Positions 2,327 through 36,147 of a stretch of DNA of 44,832 bases are shown one piece after another. This DNA is from a virus, in the IMG/VR virus record IMGVR_UViG_3300043449_001145, positions 1-44,832 of that record. The stretch is one strand, 5' to 3'. How positions within the stretch are numbered: position 1 is the first letter of the stretch; each line of letters starts with the position of its first letter. The notes below the pieces were generated by a model that worked only from the letters and a program-made list of their open reading frames with translations, was not told the DNA's origin and ran no database searches. Both the position numbers and the translations under genes were made by a program.

Positions 2327-2346
2327 GCGAAGCGGCAAAACAAATT

Positions 2347-2373
2347 CCGCCGGGGTTGGAACCGCCCCGGCGG
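2347..2373 (+). terminator. Perfect 9-bp GC hairpin after the histone-like gene
   Basis: CCGCCGGGG at 2347-2355 pairs with CCCCGGCGG at 2365-2373 around a 9-nt loop, followed by AAACTTTTCT. The T-run is short and interrupted, and the next ATG (2389) is only 15 nt away. It could therefore be a weak terminator, an RNA-stabilising 3' end, or a structure affecting translation of the next gene. Confidence 0.6.
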
Positions 2374-2388
2374 AAACTTTTCTAAACA

Positions 2389-5342: not shown

Positions 5343-5388
5343 AAAAAATTTCCTTGTTGTTTCAAGGGTTTCCGGGGTTTTTCGAAGA

Positions 5389-5445
5389 TTGTTAAAGTTT
5401 TTTCTTGTCGTCCGGGTCGGATCGTGCGAAGCTGCGCCCGTCATG
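5389..5445 (+). promoter_or_regulatory. Conserved start module, copy 2 (promoter/operator candidate)
   Basis: TTGTTAAA at 5389-5396 is preceded by GAAGA. After 8 nt comes TTGTC at 5405-5409, then 12 nt, TCGTG at 5422-5426, then 16 nt and the ATG at 5443. It fills the 100-nt gap after the polymerase gene. Its box spacing equals that of copies A and C on the other strand. The 23 nt around the start are identical to copy 1. Confidence 0.6.
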
Positions 5446-5748
5446 AAAAACAAATCGTTCCAAACTTCACTTCGCGAAATCTTCACCCCAGCTTATGATA
5501 TGACGATTGACCGCCCTTATACCGGCAATCATTACGATTATTGGGTAAGCTTTTTTCGCAACGGCGATTCGGTCACGGTCAACCATCACGGTTGCCAAGG
5601 TCTTGCCCCGGTTCGTCCGTTGCTCAAATCTGAAACCTATTCGATTGAAGGGTTGCTTTCGGGTTTGATTGCCCAATGCCAAGATTTGGGAGTTGCCTTT
5701 GATTGCGTTGACGACTTGCCCGAAGGTTTTTCGCTGCCCATCCAATAG
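5443..5748 (+). CDS. Hypothetical protein, 101 aa
   Basis: I chose the ATG at 5443 because it is fixed by the start module; the longer in-frame extension would run back into the polymerase gene. The protein is soluble-looking and acidic at the C-terminus, with aromatic residues near 31-38 (YDYWVSFF). No domain is recognised. It has a start region identical to that of the gene at 1107 but no clear protein similarity, so the start module appears to have been duplicated separately from the coding part. A perfect hairpin begins 5 nt after its stop. Confidence 0.7.
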   Translation: MKNKSFQTSLREIFTPAYDMTIDRPYTGNHYDYWVSFFRNGDSVTVNHHGCQGLAPVRPLLKSETYSIEGLLSGLIAQCQDLGVAFDCVDDLPEGFSLPIQ

Positions 5749-5753
5749 GCAAG

Positions 5754-5780
5754 TTCGCCGGGGTTCGATCCCCCGGCGAA
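5754..5780 (+). terminator. Perfect 10-bp hairpin with T-loop-like loop
   Basis: TTCGCCGGGG (5754-5763) pairs with CCCCGGCGAA (5771-5780). The 7-nt loop TTCGATC matches the TPsiC-loop consensus of tRNA. No tRNA body surrounds it. It lies between a stop at 5748 and the ATG at 5794. The coding-strand hairpins at 31508-31532 and 33447-33469 have the same core and related loops (TCCGATC, TCCAATC). Confidence 0.6.
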
Positions 5781-5991: not shown

Positions 5992-6065
5992 CGGCGGCGG
6001 GCGTTTAGCCCATGCTTCCAAGCGTCCGAAGGCTTTTGCGGGTTGTTCGGCGCTTCATGACGAAC

Positions 6066-6113
6066 GGGCCGGGGTTGCGTTGGGTTTCGAGTTTCCCAAC
6101 AAAGCCCCGGCCC
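6066..6113. terminator. Large two-part hairpin between convergent blocks (likely bidirectional terminator)
   Basis: GGGCCGGGG (6066-6074) pairs with CCCCGGCCC (6105-6113). Inside, GTTGGG (6079-6084) pairs with CCCAAC (6095-6100) around TTTCGAGTTT. It sits between the rightward stop at 5991 and the leftward stop at 6120. There is no long T-run on either strand, so termination may need a factor. The rest of 5992-6119 shows no gene. Confidence 0.65.
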
Positions 6114-6119
6114 AATCGT

Positions 6120-30471: not shown

Positions 30472-31145
30472 ACGTCAAGCACGGTTGATGTTTTAAGCGC
30501 ACGTTGCGAGGCTATCGCTTGCGCTTCCCAATTGACGATTGGTTCAGCGACGAACATAATTCGCCGGACCTGCGGTTGATCTTCCTTTGGCTTGGGCGTT
30601 AGCATTCCAAACATCTGCGCCAATTTGGACAGCGCCGCAATCCGCGTTGAACTGTTGGACATGGCGCAGCCGCTAACGACGGAATCGGGCCGGTTGGCTT
30701 CCTCCCAAAATTTCGCGGCAATCTGCCCTTGATTAACAACCGATTCAAGGTTGGCGGCTTTCTGGATTTCCAGCAAATAAAGTTGGGTGAATGCGTTGCC
30801 TAGCTCAAGGCGGGCGGTATCGGGCGCAGTAATTTCAGGGTATCCCATCCGCAGCGCCGCCCGATAAGGGTTATAGTCCTTAACGTATTCATGCACGAAA
30901 GCCTTGTGCCTTGCCACTTCGTCAAAGGGCAGGTTGAACTTGATTGCGAATTCCTCGCTTGTGATGGCGGGATTTTCGGCGCGTGCGGCCACAAGCAAAG
31001 CCGCTTGCGGGCCGGGCGCTTTCGCCTGTCCTCGCTTGCTTCGTTTTCGTTTTTCCTTCGTTGGGGACGATTTCGGCGCAGCCTTCGCAGGCTTGGCCGC
31101 AGGTTTGCCCCGCTTTGCCGCAGCGGTTGCCATAGGCGCACGCAT
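30468..31145 (-). CDS. Terminase small subunit
   Basis: The protein has 225 residues from the ATG at 31145; a second ATG at 31133 is equally possible. The first ~45 residues are a Lys/Ala/Pro-rich basic tail. A helix-turn-helix-rich domain follows, with HEYVKDYNPYRAALRMGYPEIT and RLELGNAFTQLYLLEIQK, the pattern of small terminase DNA-binding domains. It recognises the packaging site. The basic tail resembles the histone-like protein's tail and may add non-specific DNA binding. A terminator lies upstream at 31188-31217. Confidence 0.83.
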   Translation of the reverse strand: MRAPMATAAAKRGKPAAKPAKAAPKSSPTKEKRKRSKRGQAKAPGPQAALLVAARAENPAITSEEFAIKFNLPFDEVARHKAFVHEYVKDYNPYRAALRMGYPEITAPDTARLELGNAFTQLYLLEIQKAANLESVVNQGQIAAKFWEEANRPDSVVSGCAMSNSSTRIAALSKLAQMFGMLTPKPKEDQPQVRRIMFVAEPIVNWEAQAIASQRALKTSTVLDV

Positions 31146-31187
31146 ACCAGCAACGGCGCAAGGCGGGCAAGGTTTATTTCGGAACGC

Positions 31188-31217
31188 AAAAAAGCCCGCA
31201 GGCGCTAACCTGCGGGC
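31188..31217 (-). terminator. Intrinsic terminator upstream of the structural operon
   Basis: On the minus strand GCCCGCAGG (31217-31209) pairs with CCTGCGGGC (31202-31194) around a 6-nt loop, followed by six T (31193-31188). It separates the small accessory genes from the terminase operon, so the structural genes probably have their own promoter in 31146-31187. I see no clear promoter boxes there. Confidence 0.9.
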
Positions 31218-31246: not shown

Positions 31247-31489
31247 CTATCCTAGCAAGCTTTGCAATTCTTCGTTTGGCACGGCTTTATCGTTCCGGCG
31301 GGCGCTGACTTTGTATTTGTGACCGCCGCCTTGAAGGCTGCGCCCAAAGCCCGTAACCGTGAAAACGATTTCCCCGAAATAATAAACATCGGGCGCGCCT
31401 TTGTGAACGTAGGTATGCCCGAAACGGCGGGTATGGATGGCTTGCCCGGCGAAATAAGCTAGGTTGAATTCTGGCGTTTGGCGTTTCAT
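31247..31489 (-). CDS. Hypothetical protein, 80 aa
   Basis: This 80-residue protein is beta-rich and basic, with many Tyr/Phe/His residues (HTYVHKGAPDVYYFGEIVF). No family is recognised. The ATG follows a perfect GC hairpin (31508-31532) in a CTTCTAAAACATG context without Shine-Dalgarno, and an intrinsic terminator follows the stop. The gene could be an exchangeable accessory gene. Confidence 0.65.
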   Translation of the reverse strand: MKRQTPEFNLAYFAGQAIHTRRFGHTYVHKGAPDVYYFGEIVFTVTGFGRSLQGGGHKYKVSARRNDKAVPNEELQSLLG

Positions 31490-31507: not shown

Positions 31508-31532
31508 GGGCCGGGGGATCGGACCCCGGCCC
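31508..31532 (-). terminator. Perfect 9-bp GC hairpin with TCCGATC loop
   Basis: GGGCCGGGG and CCCCGGCCC form the arms. On the coding (minus) strand the loop is TCCGATC, similar to that of the hairpins at 5754 and 33447. It begins 8 nt after the stop of the 31541-31891 gene and ends 18 nt before the next ATG. No T-run follows, so it may be a transcript-end or processing structure rather than a standard terminator. Confidence 0.58.
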
Positions 31533-31540
31533 GAAGATGT

Positions 31541-31891
31541 TTACTTTGCGAATTTGGCAGCGTAGCGGGCGCGAGTGGATTCGATGCGCTTTGCAATAGC
31601 GGCTTCCATTTCTTCAACCGTCTTGAAGTAGGAAGAAGGCTGACTTGCGCCAAATTCAAAACCGTTGCGCGTTGCCTTCATACAAACATCAAAATATTCG
31701 CCCACGCTGTCAAAGCCAAGGCAAGGGCATTTCGCATCTTCCGGCGCTTCGACAACAAGAACGGGGCGAATCCTGATTGAAAGGCCAAGCTTGCGGCCCT
31801 TCTCGTCAACCAAGTTGAAATCCGCATCGCGTCGGATGCTTTCGCCGTTGATCTTAACTTGCGTTCTAAGTTCGTTCGAGTTGTTTTTCAT
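31541..31891 (-). CDS. Hypothetical protein, 116 aa
   Basis: The protein has 116 residues. The N-terminal half is strand-rich (ADFNLVDEKGRKLGLSIRIRPVLVVE), and the C-terminal part ends with a helix of Glu/Ala/Arg (VEEMEAAIAKRIESTRARYAAKF). It has Cys in KCPCLGF. No family is recognised. It is preceded by a good copy of the conserved start module and followed by a GC hairpin, forming a one-gene cassette. Confidence 0.7.
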   Translation of the reverse strand: MKNNSNELRTQVKINGESIRRDADFNLVDEKGRKLGLSIRIRPVLVVEAPEDAKCPCLGFDSVGEYFDVCMKATRNGFEFGASQPSSYFKTVEEMEAAIAKRIESTRARYAAKFAK

Positions 31892-31944
31892 AACGACGCG
31901 AAATTGACAGAAAACCGGGGGAACGTCAACGCCATTTTTAACAA
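31889..31944 (-). promoter_or_regulatory. Conserved start module, copy D (promoter/operator candidate)
   Basis: TTGTTAAA (31944-31937) is followed after 7 nt by TTGAC (31929-31925), 12 nt, TTCTG (31912-31908), 16 nt and the ATG (31891-31889). It is preceded by GAAGA as in copy 2. With TTGAC as a -35 box, transcription would begin only a few bases before the ATG, but a -10 box is not evident. Confidence 0.62.
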
Positions 31945-31969
31945 TCTTCGAAAATAATTTTCGGGGCGC

Positions 31970-32428
31970 TCATTCGGTCAAATACCGTTCCAGAATCGCG
32001 ACAGCTTCGCGCCAGCCGTGAGCAACCGCCCAACCGTAACCGTCCGCGCGAACCTGTCGCCCGAACGCTTCTTGCGCTTCGCTAGTCGCCCCGGATTTGG
32101 CTTTGATGGCTTTCCCCCGCTTCCCGGTCCGCTGGTTTTGCGGATGCGTGGGGTCGCGTTTTAGTTCGATATAAAGCCCCGCGCAGCCATGCCGGGGAAG
32201 CGGCAAGAAAATATCAGCAACGCCCGCTTGAATGCCGATTTGCTTTGCTCGCGCGCCCTTCACGGCATCCGTGAAATTTTGGTTCGTCGCATACAGTTTG
32301 CAACGCTTCGTTTCGGCGTTGTAGAAATGCGGGAACCGGCGGCGCGTTTCGGCTAGGTTGGCCCAACAGAAAAGCGCGCCTTGCTCGCCAAACTCGGAAC
32401 CGCTTCGGGCTAGGTCTTCGGGTTTCAT
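31970..32428 (-). CDS. VRR-NUC-type nuclease
   Basis: I chose the ATG at 32428 (152 residues), just after the preceding gene's stop, rather than a TTG at 32446. The VRR-NUC features are GVADIFLP, then LYIELKRD (catalytic Glu and Lys), then SEAQEAFGRQVRADGY and the closing helix ILERYL. Such phage nucleases are structure-selective and may cut DNA junctions or act in replication. It is the last gene of an overlapping mini-operon starting at 33165. The ATG context is CTTAAACATG. Confidence 0.85.
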   Translation of the reverse strand: MKPEDLARSGSEFGEQGALFCWANLAETRRRFPHFYNAETKRCKLYATNQNFTDAVKGARAKQIGIQAGVADIFLPLPRHGCAGLYIELKRDPTHPQNQRTGKRGKAIKAKSGATSEAQEAFGRQVRADGYGWAVAHGWREAVAILERYLTE

Positions 32429-32430
32429 GT

Positions 32431-32691
32431 TTAAGAGTTTCGCCAAGTTTCGAATTCAGCGCATTCCCTCGCGTATGCCTGCGGGTTGGCTGCGATCCAA
32501 GCTTTTTCTTCCGGGGTCATGGCGCGCGCTTCGATCAAAACGCGGTCTTCACGCCAGTAACCCATTTGCCGGGCGCTGATGGGGAATTGCCAAAGCCTGC
32601 GCCCCGTGTATTCGCAACGCGTTTCCGGGTCGAAGGCTGGCCCAAGCTCGCGCGTTACCTTGGTTGTTACGGTTACGGGGCGGCGCTTCAT
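32431..32691 (-). CDS. Hypothetical protein, 86 aa
   Basis: This 86-residue protein is basic with Trp residues near 34, 46 and 65. The C-terminal part is helical (MTPEEKAWIAANPQAYARE). The family is not recognised. The ATG overlaps the stop of the 48-residue gene upstream (ATGA), and its stop is 2 nt from the VRR-NUC start, so it is translated with the nuclease and may assist it. Confidence 0.7.
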   Translation of the reverse strand: MKRRPVTVTTKVTRELGPAFDPETRCEYTGRRLWQFPISARQMGYWREDRVLIEARAMTPEEKAWIAANPQAYARECAEFETWRNS

Positions 32692-32834
32692 GGAATCCTA
32701 AAAGTCCCGTGGGCGAACTGTAATTTGAAAACACGTTTAATGCGGGCAATTTGCCGCGCAACCTCGCGAGCGTCACGCGCAACGCTAAAGCGCCGTTCCC
32801 GATTGCCTTTTGAAAGGATGATTAGCGTTTTCAT
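32688..32834 (-). CDS. Small basic protein, 48 aa
   Basis: A 48-residue reading frame, rich in Arg (RERRFSVARDAREVARQIARIKR) and predicted helical in the middle. The real-gene case rests on exact four-base ATGA overlaps with the genes on both sides. The strong positive charge suggests RNA or DNA binding, but this is inference. Confidence 0.65.
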   Translation of the reverse strand: MKTLIILSKGNRERRFSVARDAREVARQIARIKRVFKLQFAHGTFRIP

Positions 32835-32986
32835 TCTTCCTCGCGTCTTTCGCGTTCTTCATCGCAGCCTTGGCAAAGGAAAAAAACGCCGCACGAACCG
32901 CACAAATCGCAAAGCGCCGCGCCGCAATCGTGGCATTCATTATCGCCCAAACAATCTGCCCCGCAATCTTCGCAAGCGTCGTTCAT
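32831..32986 (-). CDS. Cysteine-rich mini-protein, 51 aa (zinc knuckles)
   Basis: This 51-residue frame holds ten Cys in repeated CxxC-type pairs (CEDCG, CHDCG, CDLCG, CQGC), followed by an acidic/basic helix (DEERERREEE). It should bind two zinc ions, like a tiny double zinc ribbon. Four-base overlaps (ATGA) with the genes before and after support translation. The function is unknown; a regulator of host proteins or a nucleic-acid binder are candidates. Confidence 0.7.
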   Translation of the reverse strand: MNDACEDCGADCLGDNECHDCGAALCDLCGSCGVFFLCQGCDEERERREEE

Positions 32987-33165
32987 TCTTCAATTGAAAT
33001 GTAATTTTCAACGATCTTAATTCCATTTTCTTGATGCGCGCGCCGGTCAACCTTGACGCGATGTTTTCCGTGAAAAGCGCGCAACTCATCCAAGGCGCGC
33101 TTTTTCACTTCAAGCCAAAGTTCAGAACCGGCGATTTGGACAAGGTAGTAGCTGCGAGTTTTCAT
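32983..33165 (-). CDS. Hypothetical protein, 60 aa
   Basis: A 60-residue protein beginning KTRSYYLVQIAGSELW, with an Arg/Lys/His-rich helix in the middle and a strand at the end (IKIVENYISIEE). It starts the chain of overlapping genes 33165 to 31970 and is preceded by start module copy A. The family is not recognised. Confidence 0.7.
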   Translation of the reverse strand: MKTRSYYLVQIAGSELWLEVKKRALDELRAFHGKHRVKVDRRAHQENGIKIVENYISIEE

Positions 33166-33219
33166 GACGGAAAAGAAATGGCAGATTTGCGGCGAATGGG
33201 CAAGAAAAATCTTAAACAA
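33163..33219 (-). promoter_or_regulatory. Conserved start module, copy A (promoter/operator candidate)
   Basis: TTGTTTAA (33219-33212) is followed after 8 nt by TTGCC (33203-33199), 12 nt, ATCTG (33186-33182), 16 nt and the ATG (33165-33163). The TAA of the first box is also the stop codon of the preceding gene, so the module begins inside the end of the upstream coding region. Confidence 0.6.
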
Positions 33220-33385
33220 GTTTGAGCTTTGGATTTTTGGCAACCCAAGCTTCAACAAACGCGCGGTCAAAATCCGTTGCGCTGAACTGCGCGGCAAGGA
33301 ACCTGCCGCCCGGCTTGCGGTCTTGAAATTGGACGAAATGGGTTCCGTTCGCGGTTTGAATGGTGACGGGGCGCGGTTGCTTCAT
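33212..33385 (-). CDS. Hypothetical protein, 57 aa
   Basis: I chose the ATG at 33385 (57 residues) over a TTG at 33412 because of the module distance and the codon. The protein is beta-rich at first (VTIQTANGTHFVQFQDR) and ends with a helix (FDRAFVEAWVAKNPK). The family is not recognised. It is a one-gene cassette with its own start module (copy B), and its stop codon lies within copy A of the next gene. Confidence 0.65.
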   Translation of the reverse strand: MKQPRPVTIQTANGTHFVQFQDRKPGGRFLAAQFSATDFDRAFVEAWVAKNPKLKLV

Positions 33386-33434
33386 GCGCGGAATCTGGCA
33401 GATTTTAGGCAAACATCAAGCGAAAATTAAACAA
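33383..33434 (-). promoter_or_regulatory. Conserved start module, copy B (shorter spacing)
   Basis: TTGTTTAA (33434-33427), 7 nt, TTGAT (33419-33415), 11 nt, ATCTG (33403-33399), then 13 nt to the ATG (33385-33383). Its spacing is 1-3 nt shorter than in the other copies, so it is the weakest fit. ATCTGCCA is shared with copy A. Confidence 0.5.
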
Positions 33435-33446
33435 CTTCCAGGATTT

Positions 33447-33469
33447 CGCCGGGGGATTGGACCCCGGCG
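33447..33469 (-). terminator. Perfect 8-bp GC hairpin with TCCAATC loop
   Basis: CGCCGGGG and CCCCGGCG form the arms; the coding-strand loop is TCCAATC. It begins 15 nt after the stop of the 33485-33733 gene. There is no T-run. It closes the cassette that starts with module copy C and precedes module copy B. Confidence 0.55.
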
Positions 33470-33484
33470 GGCGCGCTTGGTTGT

Positions 33485-33733
33485 TTAGACGTAGCGGTTG
33501 CGAATCAAAAAGCTTGTCAGTTCGCCCCAGCTTCCTTCGCGATATTTGCCACCTTGCGGCCAAACGTAATAAACCGTTTTACCGTCCCGGTAAAGCTCGC
33601 CGATCATGGCGTCGGCTGCGTCAAGTTGCTCGCCCATCTTGTCCCAAGCGCGGTCCTCCGCTTTAACGCGGCGGTTGTCGCGCGCGTCCCATTCACGTTG
33701 AATCTTTTCGTGTTCGCTGAGTTTGTTTTTCAT
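33485..33733 (-). CDS. Hypothetical protein, 82 aa
   Basis: An 82-residue protein with a charged helical first half (SEHEKIQREWDARDNRRVKAE) and a second half with Tyr/Trp and Gly (VYYVWPQGGKYREGSWG). It lacks a membrane segment and no family is recognised. The ATG position is fixed by start module copy C. It forms a one-gene cassette closed by a GC hairpin. Confidence 0.68.
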   Translation of the reverse strand: MKNKLSEHEKIQREWDARDNRRVKAEDRAWDKMGEQLDAADAMIGELYRDGKTVYYVWPQGGKYREGSWGELTSFLIRNRYV

Positions 33734-33787
33734 GACGCGGAAGGGATCGCAGAAAATGCCCCGCGCGTCAATCCCCAATTTTAACAA
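33731..33787 (-). promoter_or_regulatory. Conserved start module, copy C (promoter/operator candidate)
   Basis: TTGTTAAA (33787-33780), 8 nt, TTGAC (33771-33767), 12 nt, TTCTG (33754-33750), 16 nt, ATG (33733-33731). The TAA in the first box is the stop codon of the membrane protein gene upstream. With copy D this is the clearest example. Confidence 0.62.
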
Positions 33788-36054: not shown

Positions 36055-36108
36055 GACGCCGCAAAGATGTTTGATTTTTTCCCGATTGGCGAGAAAAAAC
36101 TTCAACAA
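36052..36108 (-). promoter_or_regulatory. Conserved start module, copy E (promoter/operator candidate)
   Basis: TTGTTGAA (36108-36101), then GTTTTTTC identical to that in copy 2, TCGCC (36092-36088), 12 nt, ATCAA (36075-36071), 16 nt and the ATG (36054-36052). The third box deviates, but the overall spacing is the same. It lies between the primase stop (36148) and this gene's ATG. Confidence 0.52.
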
Positions 36109-36147
36109 TCTTTCAAAAGCCCGATTTTTCTAGGGCTGGCGGGCGCG

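Follow-up and report, generated by a model that had tools for sequence, protein, structure and literature searches.

A moron-like cassette system with a distinct promoter-like front and a recurrent RNA-like hairpin in a siphovirus-like genome

Results

Small gene units are stacked on one strand

We analyzed the IMG/VR virus record IMGVR_UViG_3300043449_001145 over its full 44,832 nucleotides (nt; hereafter the window), with emphasis on positions 31508-33787, where small gene units follow one another on the minus strand. Each unit opens with a promoter-like module that runs up to a start codon, and some units carry a GC-rich hairpin behind their first gene. Because the window has a 127-nt direct repeat at both ends, it is probably a complete circular map of ~44.7 kb. 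Its gene set is siphovirus-like, with TerS, TerL, a DUF4055 portal-like protein, a tail-tip protein, and a primase-like protein with an NrS-1 polymerase domain. By DNA, nothing near the window was found in INPHARED, and the TerL relatives in that database were all below 60%. A loose test detected Shine-Dalgarno–like sequences before 8 of 61 genes, and ARAGORN called no tRNA in the window.

An earlier sequence-only reading of this DNA had placed four modules (C, B, A, and D) on one strand, each with its gene or genes, together with two GC hairpins; its coordinates all proved right. The features, in gene order, are as follows (aa, amino acids):

33734-33787, minus strand: module C; box 1 TTGTTAAA (33787-33780), -35-like TTGACG (33771-33766), 17 nt, -10-like GATCCC (33748-33743), 9 nt, ATG 33733
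33485-33733, minus strand: front gene of C, 82 aa, matching phrog_16256 (unknown function)
33447-33469, minus strand: hairpin C, 8-bp stem CGCCGGGG, loop TCCAATC, with module B next
33386-33434, minus strand: module B; TTGTTTAA, -35-like TTGATG (33419), 16 nt, CAGATT, 6 nt, ATG 33385
33212-33385, minus strand: front gene of B, 57 aa, no hairpin downstream
33166-33219, minus strand: module A; TTGTTTAA, -35-like TTGCCC (33203), 17 nt, CATTTC, 9 nt, ATG 33165
31970-33165, minus strand: five-gene chain behind module A (33165-32983, 32986-32831, 32834-32688, 32691-32431, 32428-31970)
31892-31944, minus strand: module D; TTGTTAAA, -35-like TTGACG (31929), 17 nt, CAATTT, 9 nt, ATG 31891
31541-31891, minus strand: front gene of D, 116 aa, no family
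31508-31532, minus strand: hairpin D, 9-bp stem GGGCCGGGG, loop TCCGATC, 18 nt upstream of ATG 31489
31247-31489, minus strand: gene behind hairpin D
31194-31217, minus strand: intrinsic terminator closing unit D, GC stem plus TTTTTT, ahead of the TerS promoter-like site
31134-31170, minus strand: TerS promoter-like site with the module layout; TTGCCC, 18 nt, TATGCG, 7 nt, ATG 31133

The stop codon overlaps described for two modules were confirmed: a TAA at 33783-33781 in module C ends the preceding gene, and a TAA at 33214-33212 in module A ends the gene that starts at 33385. The genes behind module A had been called a five-gene overlapping chain; this holds for the first four, which overlap by 4 nt, while the fifth starts 2 nt beyond the fourth.

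Seven modules share a two-box layout that ends at a start codon

Three further modules lie beyond 31508-33787, bringing the number in the window to seven:

36055-36108, minus strand: module E, behind the primase gene and ahead of gene 36054-35608 (gE)
5389-5442, plus strand: module F, ahead of gene 5443-5748
1053-1106 (start approximate), plus strand: module G; TTTACA, 17 nt, GAAGCT, 9 nt, ATG 1107, with TGCGAAGCTGCGCCCGTCATGAA common to G and F

In an alignment made by hand, with spacings picked by eye, all seven copies showed a -35-like hexamer, 17 nt (16 in B), a -10-like hexamer, 9 nt (6 in B), and an ATG. The -35-like hexamer reads TTGACG in C and D and TTGCCC, TTGATG, TCGCCA, TTGTCG, or TTTACA in the other modules. 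In six of the seven, a box 1 of the form TTGTT(T/A/G)AA sits 7 to 8 nt upstream of the -35 hexamer; module G has TGTTGAAA at approximately this position. A regular expression built post hoc from the copies themselves matched the window 6 times, against a mean of 0.04 and a maximum of 1 in 200 dinucleotide shuffles, and missed module G, whose -35 hexamer is TTTACA. As a side observation, modules F (5374-5416, plus strand) and E (36081-36123, minus strand) have GAAGATTGTT(A/G)AAGTTTTTTCT in common, the longest inverted repeat reported for the window.

The layout recurs in related viruses. By eye, we found 12 copies in four of them, namely, G024 (6 copies; contigs L366 and L367), L377 (4), L003 (1), and L007 (1), with spacers of 17 to 18 nt and 4 to 10 nt between the -10 box and the ATG. 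The -10-like boxes in G024 and L377 are mostly closer to TATNNT than those of the window; among the six copies of G024, they are mostly TATTCC, TATTAC, and TATCAA. U-tract terminators lie directly upstream of modules in G024, L377, and L007. The stretch TTGACGTTCCCCCGG(T/C)TTTCTG of module D was found again ahead of another gene in L007. In three G024 modules (L367:7145, L367:10650, and L366:15554), a perfect palindrome, TTGATATATCAA, covers the -35 hexamer and may be an operator; a 73-aa gene of the window (38636-38415), which has a relative in G024 (64%), could encode a regulator.

Two module pattern scans of IMG/VR returned 21 and 35 stretches, most of which lie within coding sequence or belong to AT-rich genomes; on this ground, the exact front was rejected as a widespread repeat. 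Three of the scanned stretches (L208, L213, and L253) look like real promoters, of which only L208 passed the ATG-spacing test.

A conserved hairpin lies between stop and start codons in many viral contigs

A 7-nt loop on a stem of 8 bp or more is found in only three hairpins of the window, which are all of the same family: C, D, and a third behind the front gene of module F. Their stems end in CCGGGG/CCCCGG, their loops read TTCGATC, TCCAATC, or TCCGATC, and the stretches are stable and GC-rich (-15 to -22 kcal/mol). Two hairpins lie outside the region listed above:

5754-5780, plus strand: hairpin F, 10-bp stem TTCGCCGGGG, loop TTCGATC, 13 nt upstream of ATG 5794
2345-2375, plus strand: fourth hairpin, 11-bp stem TTCCGCCGGGG, 9-nt loop TTGGAACCG, 13 nt upstream of ATG 2389, behind the second gene of unit G

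The general form of the family is a GC stem with a G-C closing pair and the 7-nt loop TYC[ACG]A[CT]C. A scan of viral contigs for CCGGGGTYCRATCCCCCGG gave 84 stretches. Among those examined as loci, tRNA-Lys genes held only 3 of the 84 exact matches, and ARAGORN called no tRNA over the hairpins kept for analysis; hence, we rejected the idea that the hairpins are ordinary tRNA genes. Outside tRNAs, the examined loci contained 74 hairpins whose stem has 6 bp or more and whose loop fits T[TC]C[AG]AN[TC]; of these, 20 lacked the scanned core. By comparison, seven control loops with similar degeneracy gave 1 to 6 hairpins each.

The hairpins are oriented. In 46 of 59 clusters, a stop codon no more than 40 nt before and an ATG no more than 45 nt after the hairpin were found on the strand that carries the loop, against 5 of 59 on the other strand. 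After exclusion of 17 clusters by eye, 42 representatives were used for hairpin statistics. The median distance was 8 nt from stop codon to stem and 19 nt from stem to ATG (each in 41 of 42 representatives), and the closing pair was G-C in all 42, which the search partly imposed. The stems covary: the outer column pairs 7/29 and 8/28, which had not been pre-selected, showed 18 cells changed on both sides, and the whole stem showed 39 such cells, a value that none of 500 shuffles equaled. A T tract behind the hairpin was present in only 2 of the 42 representatives, and the hairpin was therefore rejected as an intrinsic terminator. In whole viral records, 12 of 18 intergenic-type 7-nt-loop hairpins that had not been pre-selected carried T[TC]C[ACG]A[ACT][CT], and none did outside an intergenic-type context; this loop pattern had been widened after TTCCATC loops had appeared. 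The hairpins of L003 and L377 were encountered via TerL and primase, not via the hairpin search.

In sequence, the loop is close to the T-loop of tRNA. The T arm of tRNAs follows the rule of a 7-nt loop, T-T-C-R-A-N-Y, closed by G-C. Loop positions 1, 3, and 5 and the closing pair of the hairpins fit this rule; two of the three window hairpins depart from it by a C at position 2, and the TTCCATC loops by a C at position 4. None of 4227 Rfam families matched above the gathering threshold in the window or in nine hairpin loci, a model of the hairpin had no match at E ≤ 0.01 in two metagenome-assembled genomes (MAGs), and we recognized no description of such hairpins in the open-licence literature, which was available mostly as titles and the beginnings of abstracts.

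Two side observations concern the wider family. In a large phage group represented by L278, L280, L319, and their relatives (36 of 80 loci, by stem sequence), the hairpin lies between two conserved genes of ~290 to 330 and 120 to 150 aa. In the viral contig 3300020045_017667 (L357:1489-4557), seven tRNA-like elements, one of them degenerate, stand in a row between small genes; each precedes an ATG, and they were not called as tRNAs. These elements, together with those of L341, are of a fuller type that combines the T arm with a 5-bp acceptor-like stem and a GGT stretch. In their eight-row alignment, pairing holds for 93% of the cells, and 19 cells are changed on both sides, with 0 of 500 shuffles as high.

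Fronts and hairpins frame the first gene, and the gene between them changes

Hairpins C, D, and F each come after the gene that opens a module unit. The same holds for the G024 hairpins at L367:5540, L367:6789, L366:10327, and L366:15109 and for that at L377:6838, which is followed by a new module. Thus, in the window, G024, and L377, all eight family-loop hairpins with a stem of at least 6 bp (3, 4, and 1, respectively) stand behind the first gene of a module unit. In L003, a hairpin lies behind a homologue of gE; the front of gE is off the contig, and L003's own genes come next. The sequence-only reading had given the units both a common front and a common back end. The front is indeed present in all units, but the hairpin belongs only to C, D, and F, not to A or B, and it is not terminator-like: apart from the scarcity of T tracts, the next ATG follows after 18 nt in D and 13 nt in F with no module between, which places both hairpins inside a transcription unit.

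The structural and replication genes of G024 run collinear with those of the window (TerL 73%, primase 69%, and a 1015-aa tail-tip protein 65%); for the primase of L377, the value is 74%. At shared sites, the genes behind the modules differ. Behind the primase, where the window carries module E and gE, there are three modules in G024, with genes of 167, 119, and 96 aa, and likewise three in L377, with genes of 97, 83, and 83 aa; these front genes are not alike. Unlike front genes also occur after a 657-aa polymerase-like gene (module F in the window, L366:10887 in G024) and after gene 801 (module G and L366:15519). Among 19 front genes of the window, G024, L377, L003, and L007, only gE of the window and of L007 were alike at E ≤ 0.01, and in L007, gE stands behind a module-D-type promoter among other genes. 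L009 and L012 have no modules or hairpins in the stretch that matches window 31508-33787. The claim that the units are easily inserted or lost was thus mostly supported: collinear relatives keep the modules, and often the hairpins, at the same sites with nonhomologous front genes.

Individual joints could be placed. L328 and L339 are identical through the hairpin up to the ATG and then continue with different genes, while L301 and L321 differ up to the hairpin and agree beyond it. Homologues of the gene behind hairpin D lie directly after a module in L377 (43%) and after a different hairpin in the L322 virus (53%).

Genes of the units and other features of the window

The front-gene families had no match in Pfam, one weak match in PADLOC, and weak matches in PHROGs. 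For the front gene of C, the protein scan found one relative (58%), in a 347-kb viral contig. In the chain behind module A, the last gene (phrog_824, resolvase-like) and gene 32691-32431 are common to relatives, and the others vary; tblastn found no relative of the phrog_824 gene.

Between 34790 and 35040, the window has a noncoding stretch rich in GGTTAA/TTAACC repeats that is kept in L003 (1400-1710), L007 (110-420), and L377 (8480-8860) and is probably a replication origin. A large GC stem-loop at 6061-6118, between two converging gene blocks, matched the hairpin model weakly (E 0.01) and is perhaps a terminator.

The PVC-group MAG L084 (TerL 80%) has few sites of the module layout in the sampled contigs. 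In the two MAGs searched with the hairpin model, 4 + 2 matches (CATNNT) and 6 + 1 matches (TATNNT) lay 6 to 9 nt from an ATGA, and 0 lay at 18 to 21 nt (CATNNT only), which is too few to identify a host. Contigs of the PVC-group MAG G001 contain a repeated element, GAAACGACGATTAGCCCCAAGACTGGGGCGCAATTATTGACAGAACG, ahead of several open reading frames.

Discussion

From the observed geometry and orientation, the covariation of the stems, the conservation of the loop, and the turnover of front genes at shared sites, we consider it probable that small accessory units, open to exchange, are stacked in this region, each with a promoter-to-ATG front and a gene that is swapped at a fixed site, and several with a T-loop–like hairpin behind the first gene. 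We infer promoter activity and the start of transcription from spacing. At sigma-70 promoters, transcription begins ~7 nt after the -10 box. If the front module is a promoter of this type, its -10-like box 6 to 9 nt before the ATG would put the mRNA start at or just before the ATG, ~0 to 3 nt from the start codon, so the message would be almost leaderless. Promoter and start codon together would then form a portable start, independent of any ribosome-binding site of a neighbor, and an incoming gene would be expressed wherever it is inserted, in a phage that hardly uses Shine-Dalgarno sequences. The A/T-rich box 1 may be an UP-like element or an operator. Leaderless promoters, such as those of Actinobacteria or lambda PRM, likewise have the -10 box just before the ATG; the -10 boxes of the window are poor in comparison.

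The hairpin would act as an RNA element between the last stop and the next start codon, which most likely delimits the first, highly expressed message and protects or processes its 3′ side. Lying in the gene-sense RNA just outside the spaces covered by terminating and initiating ribosomes, it may cap the first message, cut the transcript, or separate two translation events. If, as we presume, recombination swaps genes at constant sites and joins them close to the ATG or the hairpin, the front genes would turn over and the frame would persist.

Several observations weigh against this interpretation. A scan with the Escherichia coli consensus called none of modules A to E. The -10-like boxes of the window are poor (GATCCC, GAAGCT), module B is shorter than the others, and the module spacings were selected by eye. 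Units A and B have no hairpin, the fourth window hairpin has a different loop and stands behind a second gene, and a weak TTCCATC hairpin near L377:9827 is not behind the first gene of a module. The breakpoint counts are divided as well. The sequence-only reading had proposed to test, in alignments with relatives, whether breakpoints fall at modules and hairpins. Over all 80 loci, 14 of 1643 breakpoints lay within 40 nt of a hairpin where 24 were expected at random, and there was thus no enrichment. For a restricted set, devised after this result, the 36 structural-group loci were left out, ends no more than 30 nt apart were merged, and the end-room rule was relaxed; here, 13 of 117 breakpoints lay at hairpins against 2.7 expected. 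The loci of this set are few and related, L279, L282, L286, L304, and L306 dominate it, and the count cannot tell hairpins from ordinary gene borders. Individual cases therefore give good support to cassettes whose joints lie near modules and hairpins, and the statistical test is mixed.

Could the region instead be one fixed operon with internal hairpins, in which the modules serve as start-associated translation signals, as in cluster K mycobacteriophages, rather than as promoters? The genes lie close together, no terminator separates modules A and C from the gene before, whose stop codon they overlap, the ATG end of the module (CGTCATGAA) is conserved, and few genes (8 of 61) have a Shine-Dalgarno–like sequence. 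What is kept between phages, however, is the two-box layout with its 16- to 18-nt spacing, not the sequence next to the ATG; moreover, relatives have U-tract terminators immediately ahead of modules, and modules begin units, not each gene. We regard this explanation as unlikely. Doubtful too is the classical moron arrangement, in which the hairpins are terminators or attenuators that close small units. Their stems have the stability expected of it (-15 to -22 kcal/mol), they sit behind the first gene, and a new module starts immediately behind hairpin C and the L377 hairpin; yet T tracts are nearly always missing, the same genomes contain ordinary U-tract terminators, many hairpins are followed by an ATG within 9 to 30 nt, which leaves no space for a promoter, and a terminator does not require a fixed loop. 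That the hairpins work at the DNA level, as sites for site-specific cassette exchange like integron attC sites, we hold to be highly improbable. Exchanges are joined at the hairpin in L301/L321 and L279/L282, but the joint of L328/L339 is at the ATG, past the hairpin; the loop keeps to the gene strand (46 versus 5 of 59), the stem varies freely through paired changes, and hairpins persist where genes stay unchanged, as in the 36 of 80 loci with one structural gene pair.

Two proposals for the hairpin at the RNA level are each rather less likely than not. One is that it helps translate the next gene, or insulates it from the ribosome ending the preceding gene, by filling the gap between two ribosome footprints. 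The stop-to-stem and stem-to-ATG medians would suit such a role, and the downstream gene is kept together with the hairpin while the upstream gene differs in window/L322, L281/L315, and L281/L330. The reverse occurs in L328/L339 and, by eye, for gE in L003/L180, where the upstream gene is kept and the downstream one changed; in addition, hairpin C and the L377 hairpin have a promoter, not a start codon, behind them. The other proposal is that the T-loop hairpins and the L357/L341 elements are tRNA mimics that punctuate polycistronic messages, with the host RNase P, RNase Z, or relatives of these cutting or capping the transcript. Because of the T-loop–like loop and the fuller L357/L341 elements, processing by tRNA enzymes would be the most interesting option. 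Mitochondrial transcripts are punctuated by tRNAs, and here as there, tRNA-like elements lie between genes of what would be one transcript; the L357/L341 elements add the acceptor-like stem, GGT, and T arm. The window hairpins differ in consisting of the T-loop–like hairpin alone, with no cloverleaf and anticodon arm, and in allowing C at loop positions 2 and 4, unlike the tRNA rule. RNase P cuts some phage RNAs and bacterial mRNAs (PMC11143913).

With regard to known systems, the stack of exchangeable units resembles morons, as the sequence-only reading had suggested, in that small sporadic genes with their own promoter-like front stand between conserved genes and are absent or different at the same site in G024, L377, L003, L007, L009, and L012. 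The likeness is incomplete: most units lack a terminator of their own, only unit D closing with a U-tract terminator (31217-31194), and that behind a second gene; in addition, the units share a promoter-to-ATG module and a T-loop–like hairpin, and several are stacked. The promoter-like layout itself is present in all modules, none of A to E matching the E. coli consensus. Morons have also been reported for the lytic phage SPP1 (PMC6316719). Cluster K mycobacteriophages offer another parallel: their start-associated sequences (SAS) and extended SAS (PMC3203893) are repeats of unknown function that lie next to the start codons of some genes from various families, and an inverted repeat immediately precedes about half of them. 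The modules likewise adjoin the starts of some genes from different families. SAS, however, is one fixed 13-bp sequence (GGGATAGGAGCCC), which is not in the aligned module sequences, whereas the modules keep a two-box layout with varying sequence; and the hairpin here is mostly behind a gene, not ahead of a start-associated element, with a conserved loop rather than conserved arms.

In summary, the units form a cassette system that resembles morons, with a front of a distinct kind and a new RNA-like hairpin that recurs. Numerous unrelated viral contigs carry the hairpin motif, for which Rfam gave no match in the searched loci; the motif is both searchable and testable. If the hairpins are tRNA mimics, phages would employ a punctuation principle otherwise known from mitochondria, and together with near-leaderless promoters, such mimics would make each accessory gene a self-contained plug-in. 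The units offer a concrete anatomy for how accessory genes may be plugged into phage genomes: a front that brings its own start, a hairpin that would mark the first message, and an exchanged cargo.

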